Shown piece by piece: positions 37,124 to 43,009 of a stretch of 64,000 nt of DNA. How positions within the stretch are numbered: the stretch's first letter is position 1; the number at the start of each line of letters is the position of its first letter. This DNA is from Angustibacter sp. Root456 (GTDB lineage: Bacteria > Actinomycetota > Actinomycetes > Actinomycetales > Angustibacteraceae). Both the position numbers and the translations under genes were made by a program. The notes beneath the pieces were generated by a model, which saw only the letters and a program-made list of their open reading frames with translations, ran no database searches and was not told the DNA's origin. Location: assembly GCF_001426435.1 (NCBI RefSeq), contig NZ_LMER01000020.1:131824-195823 (forward strand), read 5' to 3'.

Positions 37124-37492
37124 GTGAACCTCACCCTGCCAGCCGAGCGCGACGCCACCCCGTGCGAGCGGCTGCGCACCGAGCGTCGACGCCTCCTGGG
37201 TGAGGTGCAGCGCCTGTCCTGGCTGCGTCGGCTGGTGCAGGCGCGGTCGGACCTAGAGGTCGCCCGGCTCACCGGCCTCGACGAGCTGACCGGCCCCGGC
37301 GAGCTCGACCCGCTCGTGCGGTCGGCCCTGGTCGTGGGCGAGGTGCGCGGCCCCGAGCTGCTGCGGTCGCTGTCCGACACCGCCCGCGGCCTCGACGTAG
37401 CGGGGAACCAGGCCCGGGCCGAGCTCGCGCAGGCCACCGAGCAGCTGCTCGACCAGCTCGCCCAGGACCCTGCCCGCTGCCTCGGGCTCTGA
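37124..37492 (+). CDS. Small helical protein with an RsiG/AmfC-like motif
   Basis: A 122-residue, highly charged, predicted coiled-coil protein with no membrane segment. EVQRLSWLRRLVQARSDLE near residues 28-46 matches the spacing S-x2-R-x3-Q-x3-D of the c-di-GMP-binding motif of RsiG (AmfC), the anti-sigma factor of WhiG; the motif Glu is shifted by one residue. Only one motif copy is present, and the protein is shorter than Streptomyces RsiG. It sits between nth and crp, two genes before a GGDEF-EAL protein. The GTG start at 37124 lacks a ribosome site. Function is inference. Confidence 0.6.
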   Translation: MNLTLPAERDATPCERLRTERRRLLGEVQRLSWLRRLVQARSDLEVARLTGLDELTGPGELDPLVRSALVVGEVRGPELLRSLSDTARGLDVAGNQARAELAQATEQLLDQLAQDPARCLGL

Positions 37493-38393: not shown

Positions 38394-40352
38394 ATGACCT
38401 CACGCAGCAGACGACGCACCGGCTCGCGCCTGTTCGTCGTCTACGCTGCCGCGAGCCTCGTGCCGGTGGCGGTGCTCGGCGCCGTCCTGCTGCGCGGGTA
38501 CCACGACCAGGCCCTCGAGCGCGGGCGCGAGCAGGGCCGGGCGCAGGCCGCCGTCATCGACGAGATGGCGATCGGACCCGCCCTCACCGGCGCCGACCTC
38601 GCCACCGGGCTGAGCGACACCGAGCTCGAGCGGCTGCGTTCGGCCACCGACCTCGCGCTCTTCCACGGCTCGGTCGTGCGGCTGCGGCTGCGCAGCTTCG
38701 GCGGCGCAGTCGCGTTCTCCGACGACGGCAGCGTGCTCGGCGCCGTCTCACCCACTGACCCGGCGTTCCGGACGGCCGCCGCCGGCGGCACCGACGTCCA
38801 GATCGTCGACGACCCTCAGCAGGCACCCGGCGCCACCGTGCGCGTGCTGCAGCCCGTGATCGCCGCCGCGAGCGGCCAGGCGATCGGCGTGCTCGAGGTG
38901 TACCTGCCCTACGACGCGATCGCCGCCAAGGTGCAGGCCGAGACGCGCCGGGCCATCTGGCACCTGGGCCTGAGCCTGCTCGCACTGTATGCGGTGCTCG
39001 CGCTCATCTCGTGGTGGACGACGCGCGCGCTGCGGCGCCACGCCGCCGCTCACGAGCACCAGGCGCTGCACGACCCGCTCACCGGGCTCGCCAACCGCGA
39101 GCTGTTCCGCCGCGTCGCCGGCGACGCGGTGCAGGACGGGCAACGCGGCGAGGGTGGCGCGCTCGTGCTGGTCGACCTCGACCACTTCAAGGAGGTCAAC
39201 GACACCCTCGGCCACCACGCCGGTGACGAGCTGCTGAAGGTGGTGGCCCAGCGCCTGCACGGCGCCCTGCGCACCGACGACACGGTCGCGCGCCTGGGCG
39301 GTGACGAGTTCGGCATCGTGCTGCCCCGAGCCACCGACCGCACCGGCACGGTGGCGCTGCTCGCCCGGGTGCGCAGTCAGCTGGCCGAGGAGATCGTCAT
39401 CCACGGCGTGCGGCTGAGCGTCGAGGCCAGCTTCGGCGTCTGCTTCTACCCCGACGACGCGCAGAGCCTCGAGGAGCTGCTGCAGCACGCCGACGCCGCG
39501 ATGTACCAGGGCAAGAACGGCACCACCGGGGTGGTGGTCTACGAGCCCGCGGGCGAGCACCATCCCACGCACTCCCTCGTGGTGCAGCAGGAGCTGCGCT
39601 TGGCCCTGGAGCGCGACGAGCTGGTGCTGCACTACCAGCCGAAGCTCGATCTCGGCAGCGGCGAGGTGCACGGCGTGGAGGCGCTCGTGCGCTGGGAGCA
39701 CCCTGAGCGCGGGCTGTTGCAGCCCGGTCAGTTCCTGCCGGTGGCCGAGCGCTCCGAGCTCATCGAGCCGCTCACGGTGTGGGTGCTGCGCCGGGCGCTG
39801 GCCGACCACGCGCGCTGGACGGCGCAGGGCGTCGCCTGGACCGTCGCGGTCAACGTCTCGGCTCGCAACCTGGGCTCGCTGGACTTCGCGCGCACCGTCG
39901 CGGCCCTGCTCGAGGAGACTGGCACGCCGCCCGAGCAGCTGCACCTGGAGGTCACCGAGACGGCGCTGGCCTTCGACCCCGAGACGGCGGCAGCGGTGGT
40001 CAGCGAGCTCGCCCGGCAGGGCATCCAGATCTCGGTCGACGACTTCGGCATCGGGTTCACGAGCCTGTCGCAGCTGCGCACGCTCACCGTCGCCGAGGTG
40101 AAGATCGACCGCACGTTCGTCGCCGGGCTCTCCGGCAGCGAGCAGGACCGCGCCATCGTCGGCTCGGTCATCGGTCTCGGGCACAGCCTCGGCTGCACCG
40201 TGACCGCCGAGGGCGTCGAGACCGAGGACGTCGCCCGCTGGTTGTCGGACGCCGGGTGCGACCGCGCGCAGGGTTACCTGTGGATGCGCCCGGCTCCCTG
40301 GACGGAGGTCGTCTCCGCGTTCTCCGCCGCACACGAGAGGTCCCTGACATGA
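38394..40352 (+). CDS. Membrane GGDEF-EAL c-di-GMP cyclase/phosphodiesterase
   Basis: A 652-residue protein: membrane helix at about 12-33, extracytoplasmic sensor region (about 35-185), second helix near 187-210, GGDEF domain (about 225-385) with intact RLGGDEFG near 300, and EAL domain (about 400-645) with EALVRW, NVSARNL, EVTETAL, DDFGIGF and KIDRTFV. Both catalytic sets look complete, so it may make and degrade c-di-GMP. No known sensor fold was recognised outside the membrane. Its stop overlaps the start of a solute-binding lipoprotein gene by four bases, suggesting that protein delivers the signal. Confidence 0.92.
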   Translation: MTSRSRRRTGSRLFVVYAAASLVPVAVLGAVLLRGYHDQALERGREQGRAQAAVIDEMAIGPALTGADLATGLSDTELERLRSATDLALFHGSVVRLRLRSFGGAVAFSDDGSVLGAVSPTDPAFRTAAAGGTDVQIVDDPQQAPGATVRVLQPVIAAASGQAIGVLEVYLPYDAIAAKVQAETRRAIWHLGLSLLALYAVLALISWWTTRALRRHAAAHEHQALHDPLTGLANRELFRRVAGDAVQDGQRGEGGALVLVDLDHFKEVNDTLGHHAGDELLKVVAQRLHGALRTDDTVARLGGDEFGIVLPRATDRTGTVALLARVRSQLAEEIVIHGVRLSVEASFGVCFYPDDAQSLEELLQHADAAMYQGKNGTTGVVVYEPAGEHHPTHSLVVQQELRLALERDELVLHYQPKLDLGSGEVHGVEALVRWEHPERGLLQPGQFLPVAERSELIEPLTVWVLRRALADHARWTAQGVAWTVAVNVSARNLGSLDFARTVAALLEETGTPPEQLHLEVTETALAFDPETAAAVVSELARQGIQISVDDFGIGFTSLSQLRTLTVAEVKIDRTFVAGLSGSEQDRAIVGSVIGLGHSLGCTVTAEGVETEDVARWLSDAGCDRAQGYLWMRPAPWTEVVSAFSAAHERSLT

Positions 40353-41257
40353 CGCACCACCGCTCCGCTCGGGCCGCACTGCTGGCCGCCGTCCTCGGGT
40401 TCACCGCGCTCACCGCGAGCGCGTGCGGTGACGCGCCGTCCGCCGAGCCGGCGAAGTCGGCCGGGCCGACGGTGTCGGTCGACCGCGCGCTGCACGACCG
40501 CCTGCCCGACGCGGTCAAGGCGTCCGGCGTGCTGCGGGTGGGCACCGACGCCTCCTACGCACCCATGTCGTTCTTCGCTCCCGACGGGCGCACGATCGTC
40601 GGCATCGAGCCCGATCTGGCGCAGCAGATCGGGGCGGTGCTGGGCGTGCGCCTGGAGTTCCGGAACGTCGACTTCACCGAGCTGCTGCCGCACGTCGCCG
40701 ACGGCTCGCTGGACGTCGCGATCTCGGCGGTGACCGACACCCCCGAGCGCGAGCAGGAGGTCGACTTCGTCAACTACTTCAACGCCGGGACGTCGATCGT
40801 CGTCCAGCGCGGCAACCCCGACGGCGTCACCGACCTGAAGGACCTGTGCGGCAAGGTCGTCGCGGTGGAGGACGGCACCACCCAGGTCGACCTCGTGAAG
40901 CGCAGCCAGGCCAACTGCGCCGGGCAGCCCATCCGGATCAAGACCTTCCCCACCAACTCCGACGCGCTGGTGCAGCTGCGCACCGGCCGCGCGGTCGCGG
41001 TGCTCAACGACTACCCACCCGCGAGCTACCTCACGAGCGACGTGCGCACCAAGGCCCACTACCAGCTGGCGTCGACGGCGCAGTACGAGCCCGGCCTCTA
41101 CGGCATCGCGGTGTCGAAGCGCGAGCAAGGGCTGCGCGACGCGCTGCAGGGAGCACTCGAGACGCTGCTCGACACGGGGGCGTACCAGCAGGTGATGGAC
41201 CACTGGAACGTCGCCAGCGGTGAGGTGCGCGAGGTGGCGGTCAACTCGGGTCGCTGA
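40349..41257 (+). CDS. Family 3 solute-binding lipoprotein (amino-acid-type)
   Basis: A 302-residue ABC-type binding protein. The signal peptide ends TASAC, giving a lipid-modified Cys near residue 27. The fold motifs VLRVGTDASYAPMSFF, GIEPDLAQQIGAVLG and DVAISAVTDTPEREQEVDFV are those of polar-amino-acid receptors. No ABC permease or ATPase gene is in the window. The 4-bp overlap with the GGDEF-EAL gene implies joint translation; a sensor role is plausible. Its last 17 bases overlap the convergent MBL gene. Confidence 0.9.
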   Translation: MTHHRSARAALLAAVLGFTALTASACGDAPSAEPAKSAGPTVSVDRALHDRLPDAVKASGVLRVGTDASYAPMSFFAPDGRTIVGIEPDLAQQIGAVLGVRLEFRNVDFTELLPHVADGSLDVAISAVTDTPEREQEVDFVNYFNAGTSIVVQRGNPDGVTDLKDLCGKVVAVEDGTTQVDLVKRSQANCAGQPIRIKTFPTNSDALVQLRTGRAVAVLNDYPPASYLTSDVRTKAHYQLASTAQYEPGLYGIAVSKREQGLRDALQGALETLLDTGAYQQVMDHWNVASGEVREVAVNSGR

Positions 41258-42035
41258 GGTAGTCCAGCTGGGCGCGCACCGACAGCTCGGCCGCGGGCCA
41301 CAGCGAGCGGTCGACGTCGGCGTACACCACCTCGACCACGCGCCGCGCGGTGGTCGCCCCCCCGGCCACCGCGGCGCGCACCTGCTCGAGCCGCTGGCCG
41401 CGGTGGGCGAGGTAGCGGTCGATGACGGTGGTGGCGTCATCGAGCGCCGGCCCGTGGCCGGGCAGCACCGTCCCGATGCGTCCGTCGCGTGCGAGCGAAC
41501 CCAAGCGCCGCAACGACTCCAGGTAGTCGGCGAGCCGCCCGTCCGGGTGGGCCACCACGGTGGTGCCCCGCCCCAGCACCGTGTCGCCGGTGAGCACGGC
41601 CGCGTCGGCCGGGAGGAGGAACGACAGCGAGTCGGACGTGTGCCCGGGCGTGGCCACCACCTCGAGCGCCAGGCCGTCGACGTCGAGCTGCTGGCCCTGC
41701 GCCAGACCCTCAGAACCCAGGCGCTGCAACGGATCCAGCGCGAGCACGGGCGCGCCGGTGAGCTCGTGGAACCGCCGGGCGCCGCCACTGTGGTCGAGGT
41801 GGCCGTGGGTCAGCAGCGTCATCGCGACGACGGCCCCGGCCTCCCGGACGACGCCCAGCACCGCCTCCAGGTGCGCCGGGTCGTCCGGGCCGGGGTCGAC
41901 GACCACCGCCCGCTGGGCGCCCGGCTCGAGCAGCACCCAGGTGTTGGTGCCGTCGAGCGTCATCGGCGAGGGGTTGGGCGCGAGCACGCAACGAGCCCGC
42001 CGGCCCACGGCTCCGCCGGGCCAGGCAGCGGTCAC
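41241..42035 (-). CDS. MBL-fold metallo-hydrolase
   Basis: A 264-residue metallo-beta-lactamase-fold hydrolase. Metal ligands are in LLTHGHLDHSGG, TPGHTSDS, TGDTVLG and LPGHGP. The C-terminal LACTB2-like winged region (about 195-264) suggests the ribonuclease/thioesterase-like LACTB2 group; substrate unknown. Orthologous by position to Rv3677c. Its GTG overlaps the upstream NUDIX stop as GTGA, so these two genes are one operon. Confidence 0.9.
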   Translation of the reverse strand: MTAAWPGGAVGRRARCVLAPNPSPMTLDGTNTWVLLEPGAQRAVVVDPGPDDPAHLEAVLGVVREAGAVVAMTLLTHGHLDHSGGARRFHELTGAPVLALDPLQRLGSEGLAQGQQLDVDGLALEVVATPGHTSDSLSFLLPADAAVLTGDTVLGRGTTVVAHPDGRLADYLESLRRLGSLARDGRIGTVLPGHGPALDDATTVIDRYLAHRGQRLEQVRAAVAGGATTARRVVEVVYADVDRSLWPAAELSVRAQLDYLSDPS

Positions 42036-43009
42036 GGCGCGTCCTCGATGCCCGACGCCGGCCCGGGCTCTCCGCCGCCTCGGCCGTCGAGGTCGATGCG
42101 CACGCCGAGTCCGTCCGGACGCCGCACCAGCCAGGGCATGAGCAACCGCGGCTCGCGAGGTTGGGCCAGCACGTCGGCGATCTCACCGCAGGCCGCGACC
42201 TCCTCGAGCGTCACGAGCGTGGGCGGCAGCATGGCCAGGCGGCCCGTGCGACCCCCCTCGGCCGCCTCGCGCACCGGCAACCAGGTCGAGTGGTCGGCCT
42301 CGCCGCTCACGTGCCGCGCCACCTGCCCGTGCGGCAGGGCCGCGACGAAGAACCACGTGTCGTAGCGGCGCGGCTCGAACACCGGTGTGCACCAGTGGCT
42401 CCACGCGCTGAGCAGCTCGGTGCGCAGCTGCAGGCCACGCCGTTCGAGCAGCTCCGAGAGGGCGAGCGAGCGGTCGAGCAGCGCCAAGCGGTCGGCTTCC
42501 CAGGAGTCGTCGCTGACGTCGCGCACGACCTCACCGCCGGCCGGGCCGGCGAGCAGCACACCGCACTCCTCGAACAGCTCGCGGACCGCCGCGCACACCA
42601 GCCCCGACGCCTCGGGCGCCGGCACGCGCAACCGCCGCGCCCACTCGGTCAGGCTCGGCCCGCCCCACGCGACGTCGTCGTCGCAGTCGCGCGGGTCGAC
42701 CCCGCCACCGGGAAACACGTGCATGTGCGCCGCGAAGGCCATGGACGACGTCCGGCGCAGGACGAACGCCTCCGGCCCGCCGCCCGGACCGCCGCCCGGA
42801 CCGCCGCCCGGCCCGCCGCTCGGACCGCCGCCCGGACCGCCGCCCGGACCGCCGCCCGGCCCGCCGTCCGGACCGCCGCCCGAGCCGCCGTCTCGCAGCA
42901 AGATCACCGTCGAGGCACGCCGTGGCTGCGCAGGATCTCCCGCTTGGCGCTGGCTAAACGTCGTAGCGTGGTCGAGCAACCGCGGGTTCAGCGGGAATTC
43001 ACGCAGCAT
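42032..43009 (-). CDS. NUDIX hydrolase with GGGP-repeat insert
   Basis: A 325-residue NUDIX-family protein. MHVFPGGGVDPRD begins the NUDIX region and AAVRELFEECGVLL ends it, with a 35-residue insert between, typical of the NUDT19/RNA-pyrophosphohydrolase-like subgroup. A run of Gly/Pro (about residues 41-78), encoded by a 12-bp DNA repeat, interrupts the first beta strand region. TACGAT precedes the ATG by six bases. Divergent from merR and coupled to the MBL gene. Substrate unknown. Confidence 0.87.
   Translation of the reverse strand: MLREFPLNPRLLDHATTFSQRQAGDPAQPRRASTVILLRDGGSGGGPDGGPGGGPGGGPGGGPSGGPGGGPGGGPGGGPEAFVLRRTSSMAFAAHMHVFPGGGVDPRDCDDDVAWGGPSLTEWARRLRVPAPEASGLVCAAVRELFEECGVLLAGPAGGEVVRDVSDDSWEADRLALLDRSLALSELLERRGLQLRTELLSAWSHWCTPVFEPRRYDTWFFVAALPHGQVARHVSGEADHSTWLPVREAAEGGRTGRLAMLPPTLVTLEEVAACGEIADVLAQPREPRLLMPWLVRRPDGLGVRIDLDGRGGGEPGPASGIEDAP
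42772..42891 (-). repeat. In-frame 12-bp tandem repeat in the NUDIX gene
   Basis: About ten imperfect copies of CGCCCGGACCGC (plus-strand view) encode GGGP/GGPG units. Strong period, few substitutions; copy number is likely variable and assembly errors are possible. Confidence 0.85.

Follow-up and report, generated by a model that had tools for sequence, protein, structure and literature searches.

A gene-paired solute-binding protein and membrane GGDEF-EAL enzyme as a probable two-protein c-di-GMP receptor in Actinobacteria

Here, we describe two genes that lie one behind the other in the window (the whole 64-kb stretch of DNA that was analysed), a membrane GGDEF-EAL gene and the gene for a probable lipoprotein of solute-binding protein (SBP) family 3. 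The first gene (38394..40352; this and all features of the pair are on the + strand) encodes the receptor/enzyme, a protein of 652 aa with a first transmembrane helix at residues about 12-34 (38427..38495), an outside domain at residues about 35-187 (38496..38954), a second transmembrane helix at residues about 188-210 (38955..39023), a GGDEF domain (39063..39521) and an EAL phosphodiesterase domain (39588..40292). Both helices were placed from the sequence and a low-confidence model, and the enzymatic domains from Pfam (GGDEF 147 bits, EAL 239 bits) and motif reading, with the GGDEF A-site, the inhibitory RxxD I-site and the EAL catalytic motifs all intact. The second gene (40349..41257) encodes the SBP, of 302 aa, and shares 4 bp with the first in the stop/start overlap ATGA (40349..40352), from which we infer translational coupling of the two genes. 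The original prediction of an SBP/GGDEF-EAL pair with a 4-bp overlap, intact cyclase and phosphodiesterase domains and an outside domain of 150 residues (here about 153) is thus borne out by the open reading frames, the overlap as read directly and the motifs.

The SBP matches SBP_bac_3 (PF00497) over its full length (108 bits, Pfam cut-off 26.4), and its signal sequence contains a candidate lipobox, ASAC (Cys26), in which position -3 differs from the usual Leu. The solved structures nearest to it are mostly amino-acid-binding proteins, and its residues Arg134 (40748..40750) and Asp221 (41009..41011) align with those of the amino-acid-binding ancestor AncQR and of ABC-linked paralogues. By analogy with SBP family 3 in general, Arg134 is the predicted contact for the carboxylate of the ligand and Asp221 that for its amino group. 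With both residues kept as in AncQR, the predicted ligand is likely an alpha-amino acid. Placement in the NspS family proper, which is polyamine-binding and not family 3, was ruled out by the SBP_bac_3 match and by these nearest structures.

Does this SBP belong to a transporter? The genome of the window (3.84 Mb in 20 contigs) has 37 GGDEF matches and five SBP_bac_3 matches. A homology search found no ABC permease or ATPase within the window, which upholds the earlier claim that ABC subunits are absent from the locus; a polar amino-acid ABC uptake system was rejected as a classification, there being no adjacent permease and ATPase in the window. Each of the three other complete SBP_bac_3 genes of the genome has an adjacent permease and the SBP of the pair has none, and a phmmer comparison of the genome's remaining permease loci with known polar-amino-acid permeases found no orphan permease of this type, with one permease of a different kind matching weakly. 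Hence, judged by gene content, the SBP is an orphan as to transporter. One option is that it is nevertheless an ordinary transport component for an ABC permease elsewhere, its place behind the GGDEF-EAL gene being incidental. Several SBPs can share one permease, this SBP remains in the same Pfam family with the amino-acid pocket conserved, and the genome holds a 40%-identical paralogue on contig C1, together with a permease and an ATPase, whose permease the SBP could in principle share.

The distribution of the pair bears on this option. The SBP3 pair is present in six genomes of three families, so that the pairing, on whose lack of conservation the original prediction would have fallen, is kept well beyond the window. 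In G001, the sole congener sampled, the genes for an RsiG-like protein, Crp, the GGDEF-EAL enzyme and the SBP stand in matching order with the 4-bp overlap kept, and identity to the window is 66% for the SBP, 67% for the outside domain, 75% for GGDEF and 76% for EAL. Further pairs were located by a profile search with the outside domain: one in another family of the order (G889), with a GGDEF-only receptor and a 4-bp overlap, and three from a second order of the class, all within one family (G1242, G1264 and G1219), with a 4-bp overlap in G1242 and G1219 and the two genes close in G1264. In these four genomes the SBP_bac_3 gene lies directly downstream of the receptor gene. The distribution is patchy (the pair occurs in 1 of 12 genomes of the family of G889). 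Because order and overlap recur in the congener and the pair in four further genomes, the pairing is, on gene arrangement, more than chance. SBP divergence correlates equally with ectodomain and GGDEF divergence (r 0.84 for both), and no ectodomain-specific co-evolution with the SBP was seen beyond divergence of the operon as a whole.

Phylogenetic analysis of 40 SBP3 proteins places the six pair SBPs on a branch of their own (SH-aLRT 99.8), apart from 30 ABC-linked SBPs. This separation, and the maintenance of pair and overlap over three families, argue against a transport component that merely happens to lie behind the enzyme. A related option is a dual role, in which the SBP works for the receptor and also for a shared transporter and uptake is coupled to signalling; SBPs with both roles are on record (PMC9602780) and the genome contains a close permease set, but the homology search found no ABC genes near any SBP-receptor pair, and the divergent G889 SBP has lost the conserved pocket Arg yet still stands beside its receptor. 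We therefore hold a dual role to be quite improbable. Having lost this Arg, the G889 SBP may bind a ligand that differs from that of the other pair SBPs.

The outside domain is probably a single Cache (PDC) domain. The dCache_1 profile matched the outside domains of two relatives with E values of 6e-5 and 0.03, both under the cut-off, and a search of PDB sequences with the outside-domain profile gave no matches. The predicted structure (three rows) reached only pLDDT 55, and Foldseek with this low-confidence model returned mostly Cache/PDC receptors in the PDB at low TM-scores, with LuxQ of the LuxP-LuxQ complex at rank 42 among the matches, which is a hint only.

Of the 12 SBP-linked receptors, 11 fall within a single clade (15 members, support 99) of a tree built from 73 outside domains, so that 11 of the 15 have an SBP gene next to them. 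Three unrelated families are represented among the SBPs of this clade, SBP_bac_3, SBP_bac_1 and OpuAC. The OpuAC partners (two copies in G201 and one in G305) lie directly downstream of GGDEF-only receptors, with a 4-bp overlap in both G201 copies and abutting genes in G305. The SBP_bac_1/8 partners, in a Cellulomonas MAG (L093) and in Pengzhenrongella frigida (L094), are divergently transcribed and not co-directional with the receptor, and their receptors nest in a supported group (96) whose other members have SBP3 partners or none. A fourth family, Bmp/PnrA, lies upstream of and overlaps a more distant receptor in G443. The close clade members G415 and G339 have no SBP neighbour. An adjacent SBP was found for 1 of 58 outside-domain relatives beyond the clade and, by the same homology test with a limited set of SBP queries, for 1 of 82 background GGDEF/EAL genes, that single match being weak. 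Fisher p values of about 4e-9 against the other relatives and 2e-10 against the background are indicative only: the sequences compared are related and hence not independent, the tree itself served to define the clade, and a limited set of SBP queries was run against the background.

Related receptors are paired with SBPs that a polar-amino-acid permease would not use, which adds to the case against a purely transport role, and we consider such a role unlikely. That one outside-domain clade is paired with unrelated SBP families would be most simply explained if the outside domain is the SBP docking site, and as 4 of the 12 SBP-linked receptors are GGDEF only, without EAL, the output they share is likely control of the cyclase. 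We lean somewhat towards a broader reading, in which the outside domain is a general SBP dock. On this view, one actinobacterial receptor lineage has swapped its partner among at least three unrelated SBP families, of amino-acid, sugar and glycine-betaine type, and has moved between a GGDEF-EAL and a GGDEF-only output.

The outside-domain family extends beyond these receptors. It is seen above GGDEF-EAL and above GGDEF alone, and also on proteins of roughly 460-515 residues without GGDEF (L232, L237, L238, L198 and L201); a response-regulator-like gene lies 3' of the gene for such a protein in L198, L201 and L232, which suggests histidine kinase outputs. The window's own genome carries a second, more distant outside domain of the family (G000:C20:526470-527102; L188) on a GGDEF-EAL protein with no SBP neighbour, and the congener also has an L188-type GGDEF-EAL protein with a distant outside domain (L190). 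Elsewhere, the gene for a lipoprotein without a Pfam family (L235:2367-3473) shares 4 bp with that of a GGDEF-EAL protein whose outside domain is a distant member of the family, an arrangement repeated in a second genome of that genus (L236:2-373, truncated by the contig end); the L235 lipoprotein had been suspected to be an SBP but, having no Pfam match, was left out of the SBP count. Two other neighbours, GSDH (L178) and NAGPA (L173), proved on inspection not to be SBPs. In L205-L210 (upstream of the outside-domain gene) and in L179 (L179:5774-6844), distant relatives that lack an SBP neighbour adjoin a secreted Matrixin-like protein (Peptidase_M10), which may be a different sort of outside partner; the Pfam match was checked in L205 and L179, and a same-sized neighbour is present in the other five genomes of the L205 genus.

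Given this pairing, how might the SBP act on the enzyme? For the pair itself, what is established directly is how the genes are ordered and conserved, which motifs they carry, that the SBPs form a clade of their own and that receptors of the outside-domain clade stand beside several SBP families; ligand, docking, direction of change and cellular output we infer. We consider it probable from the sequences that the two genes encode a two-protein receptor of the NspS-MbaA kind, in which the SBP docks on the Cache-like outside domain and shifts the c-di-GMP balance. The SBP, probably tethered outside the membrane, would bind a small polar ligand, an alpha-amino acid being the likeliest, and its closed form would dock on the outside domain of the GGDEF-EAL protein. 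Docking would shift the membrane-crossing helices and tip the balance between c-di-GMP synthesis and breakdown. The GGDEF cyclase is the most probable route for this, and EAL would supply a reverse mode, as in MbaA. By analogy with NspS-MbaA, the ligand-closed SBP would favour synthesis (PMC8967002).

Speaking for this receptor are the absence of ABC genes near the pairs and of a leftover polar-amino-acid permease; speaking against it are SBP divergence that is not ectodomain-specific, the SBP-less G415 and G339, the divergent orientation of the SBP_bac_1 partners and the lost Arg of G889. Clade members with no SBP neighbour also fit a further option, that the outside Cache domain binds a ligand of its own, as Cache domains frequently do, and that SBP and enzyme are merely co-expressed in one nutrient response and make no contact. 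Repeated pairing with different SBP families would be hard to explain in this way, and we rate co-expression as the least probable of the options raised. The receptor of the NspS-MbaA kind agrees with the original prediction in that the SBP would report a nutrient to the enzyme, a reading favoured by the conserved pairs, the separate SBP clade and the several SBP families beside the outside domain. The mechanism is not without precedent, as NspS-MbaA and ScrB-ScrC work in this manner (PMC8967002, PMC10269520).

A second-messenger hub with Crp and the RsiG-like protein had also been suggested. This does not hold up, as those neighbours accompany the pair only within the genus and the pairs of other families lack them. 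The region encodes a MarP-like protease, NUDIX, endonuclease III, Crp, a metallo-beta-lactamase-fold protein, RidA and ArsA-like ATPases, and so resembles the crp neighbourhood of other actinobacteria; a literature check on the mycobacterial crp locus found nothing. Crp and the metallo-beta-lactamase-fold gene flank the pair, which has the look of an insertion between them, so that its co-location with Crp is weak evidence of joint function. As to the name "RsiG-like", a small protein of this appearance is present (window 37124-37492), but it scores 18.7 bits in Pfam against a cut-off of 27. It contains S..R...Q...D (the congener has Val for Gln) and lacks the leading Glu of the RsiG c-di-GMP motif. 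Also nearby is a NUDIX-type protein (window 42032-43009), in which a long, low-complexity repeat of Gly-Gly-Pro lies close to the N terminus.

The extracellular cues of most c-di-GMP enzymes are unknown, and a gene-paired SBP points straight to the cue, since ligand screens on SBPs can be run in solution. If the proposal is correct, a receptor clade with several SBP families shows how an input can be gained without evolving a new binding pocket, and an outside domain acting as a general dock would amount to plug-in control of c-di-GMP by different nutrients. The clade is also a natural set for testing SBP docking on Cache-type domains in Gram-positive bacteria.

In Vibrio, NspS-MbaA (PMC8967002) and ScrB-ScrC (PMC10269520) are established cases of a c-di-GMP enzyme under SBP control; for ArtI-STM1987 (PMC8846402) such control is indicated. 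The wider control of receptors by SBPs has been reviewed, with a count of no fewer than 13 SBP families known to bind receptors (PMC9602780). In the window, an SBP gene is paired with a membrane GGDEF/EAL gene outside any ABC transporter locus, two of the marks of an NspS-MbaA-like system. Like the pair, the polyamine receptor NspS-MbaA of Vibrio cholerae combines a dedicated SBP with a membrane GGDEF-EAL enzyme, whose activity is governed by SBP occupancy (PMC8967002); it differs in SBP family, in the diderm host of NspS and in the SGDEF/EVL motifs of MbaA; in addition, some of the actinobacterial relatives are paired with SBP_bac_1, OpuAC or Bmp proteins, and some are GGDEF-only enzymes. ScrB-ScrC of Vibrio parahaemolyticus likewise joins a periplasmic binding protein and a dual GGDEF-EAL enzyme in one operon (PMC10269520), but has the signal maker ScrA, for which there is no such gene beside the actinobacterial pair. 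LuxP-LuxQ of Vibrio harveyi offers an SBP docked on a PDC-type periplasmic domain, with a histidine kinase as output, and the Foldseek match to LuxQ comes from a low-confidence model. ArtI of Salmonella is a transport SBP. The arginine response there needs both arginine-binding ArtI and the dCACHE_1 cyclase STM1987, and ArtI is not reported as a dedicated, gene-paired SBP (PMC8846402).

The nearest actinobacterial case is GlnH-GlnX-PknG of Mycobacterium and Corynebacterium, in which an amino-acid-binding signalling lipoprotein shares one operon with its receptor (PMC6069109); GlnX, however, is predicted to contain four-helix bundles and has a Ser/Thr kinase as its target, with no c-di-GMP enzyme. 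Membership of this system was ruled out, the partner of the SBP being a GGDEF-EAL protein and the neighbours Crp and the metallo-beta-lactamase-fold protein. A narrow full-text search of open-access papers found no actinobacterial combination of an SBP with a c-di-GMP enzyme. Thus, set beside these systems, an SBP-controlled c-di-GMP receptor is apparently new for Actinobacteria, with the exchange of partners as its interesting feature.
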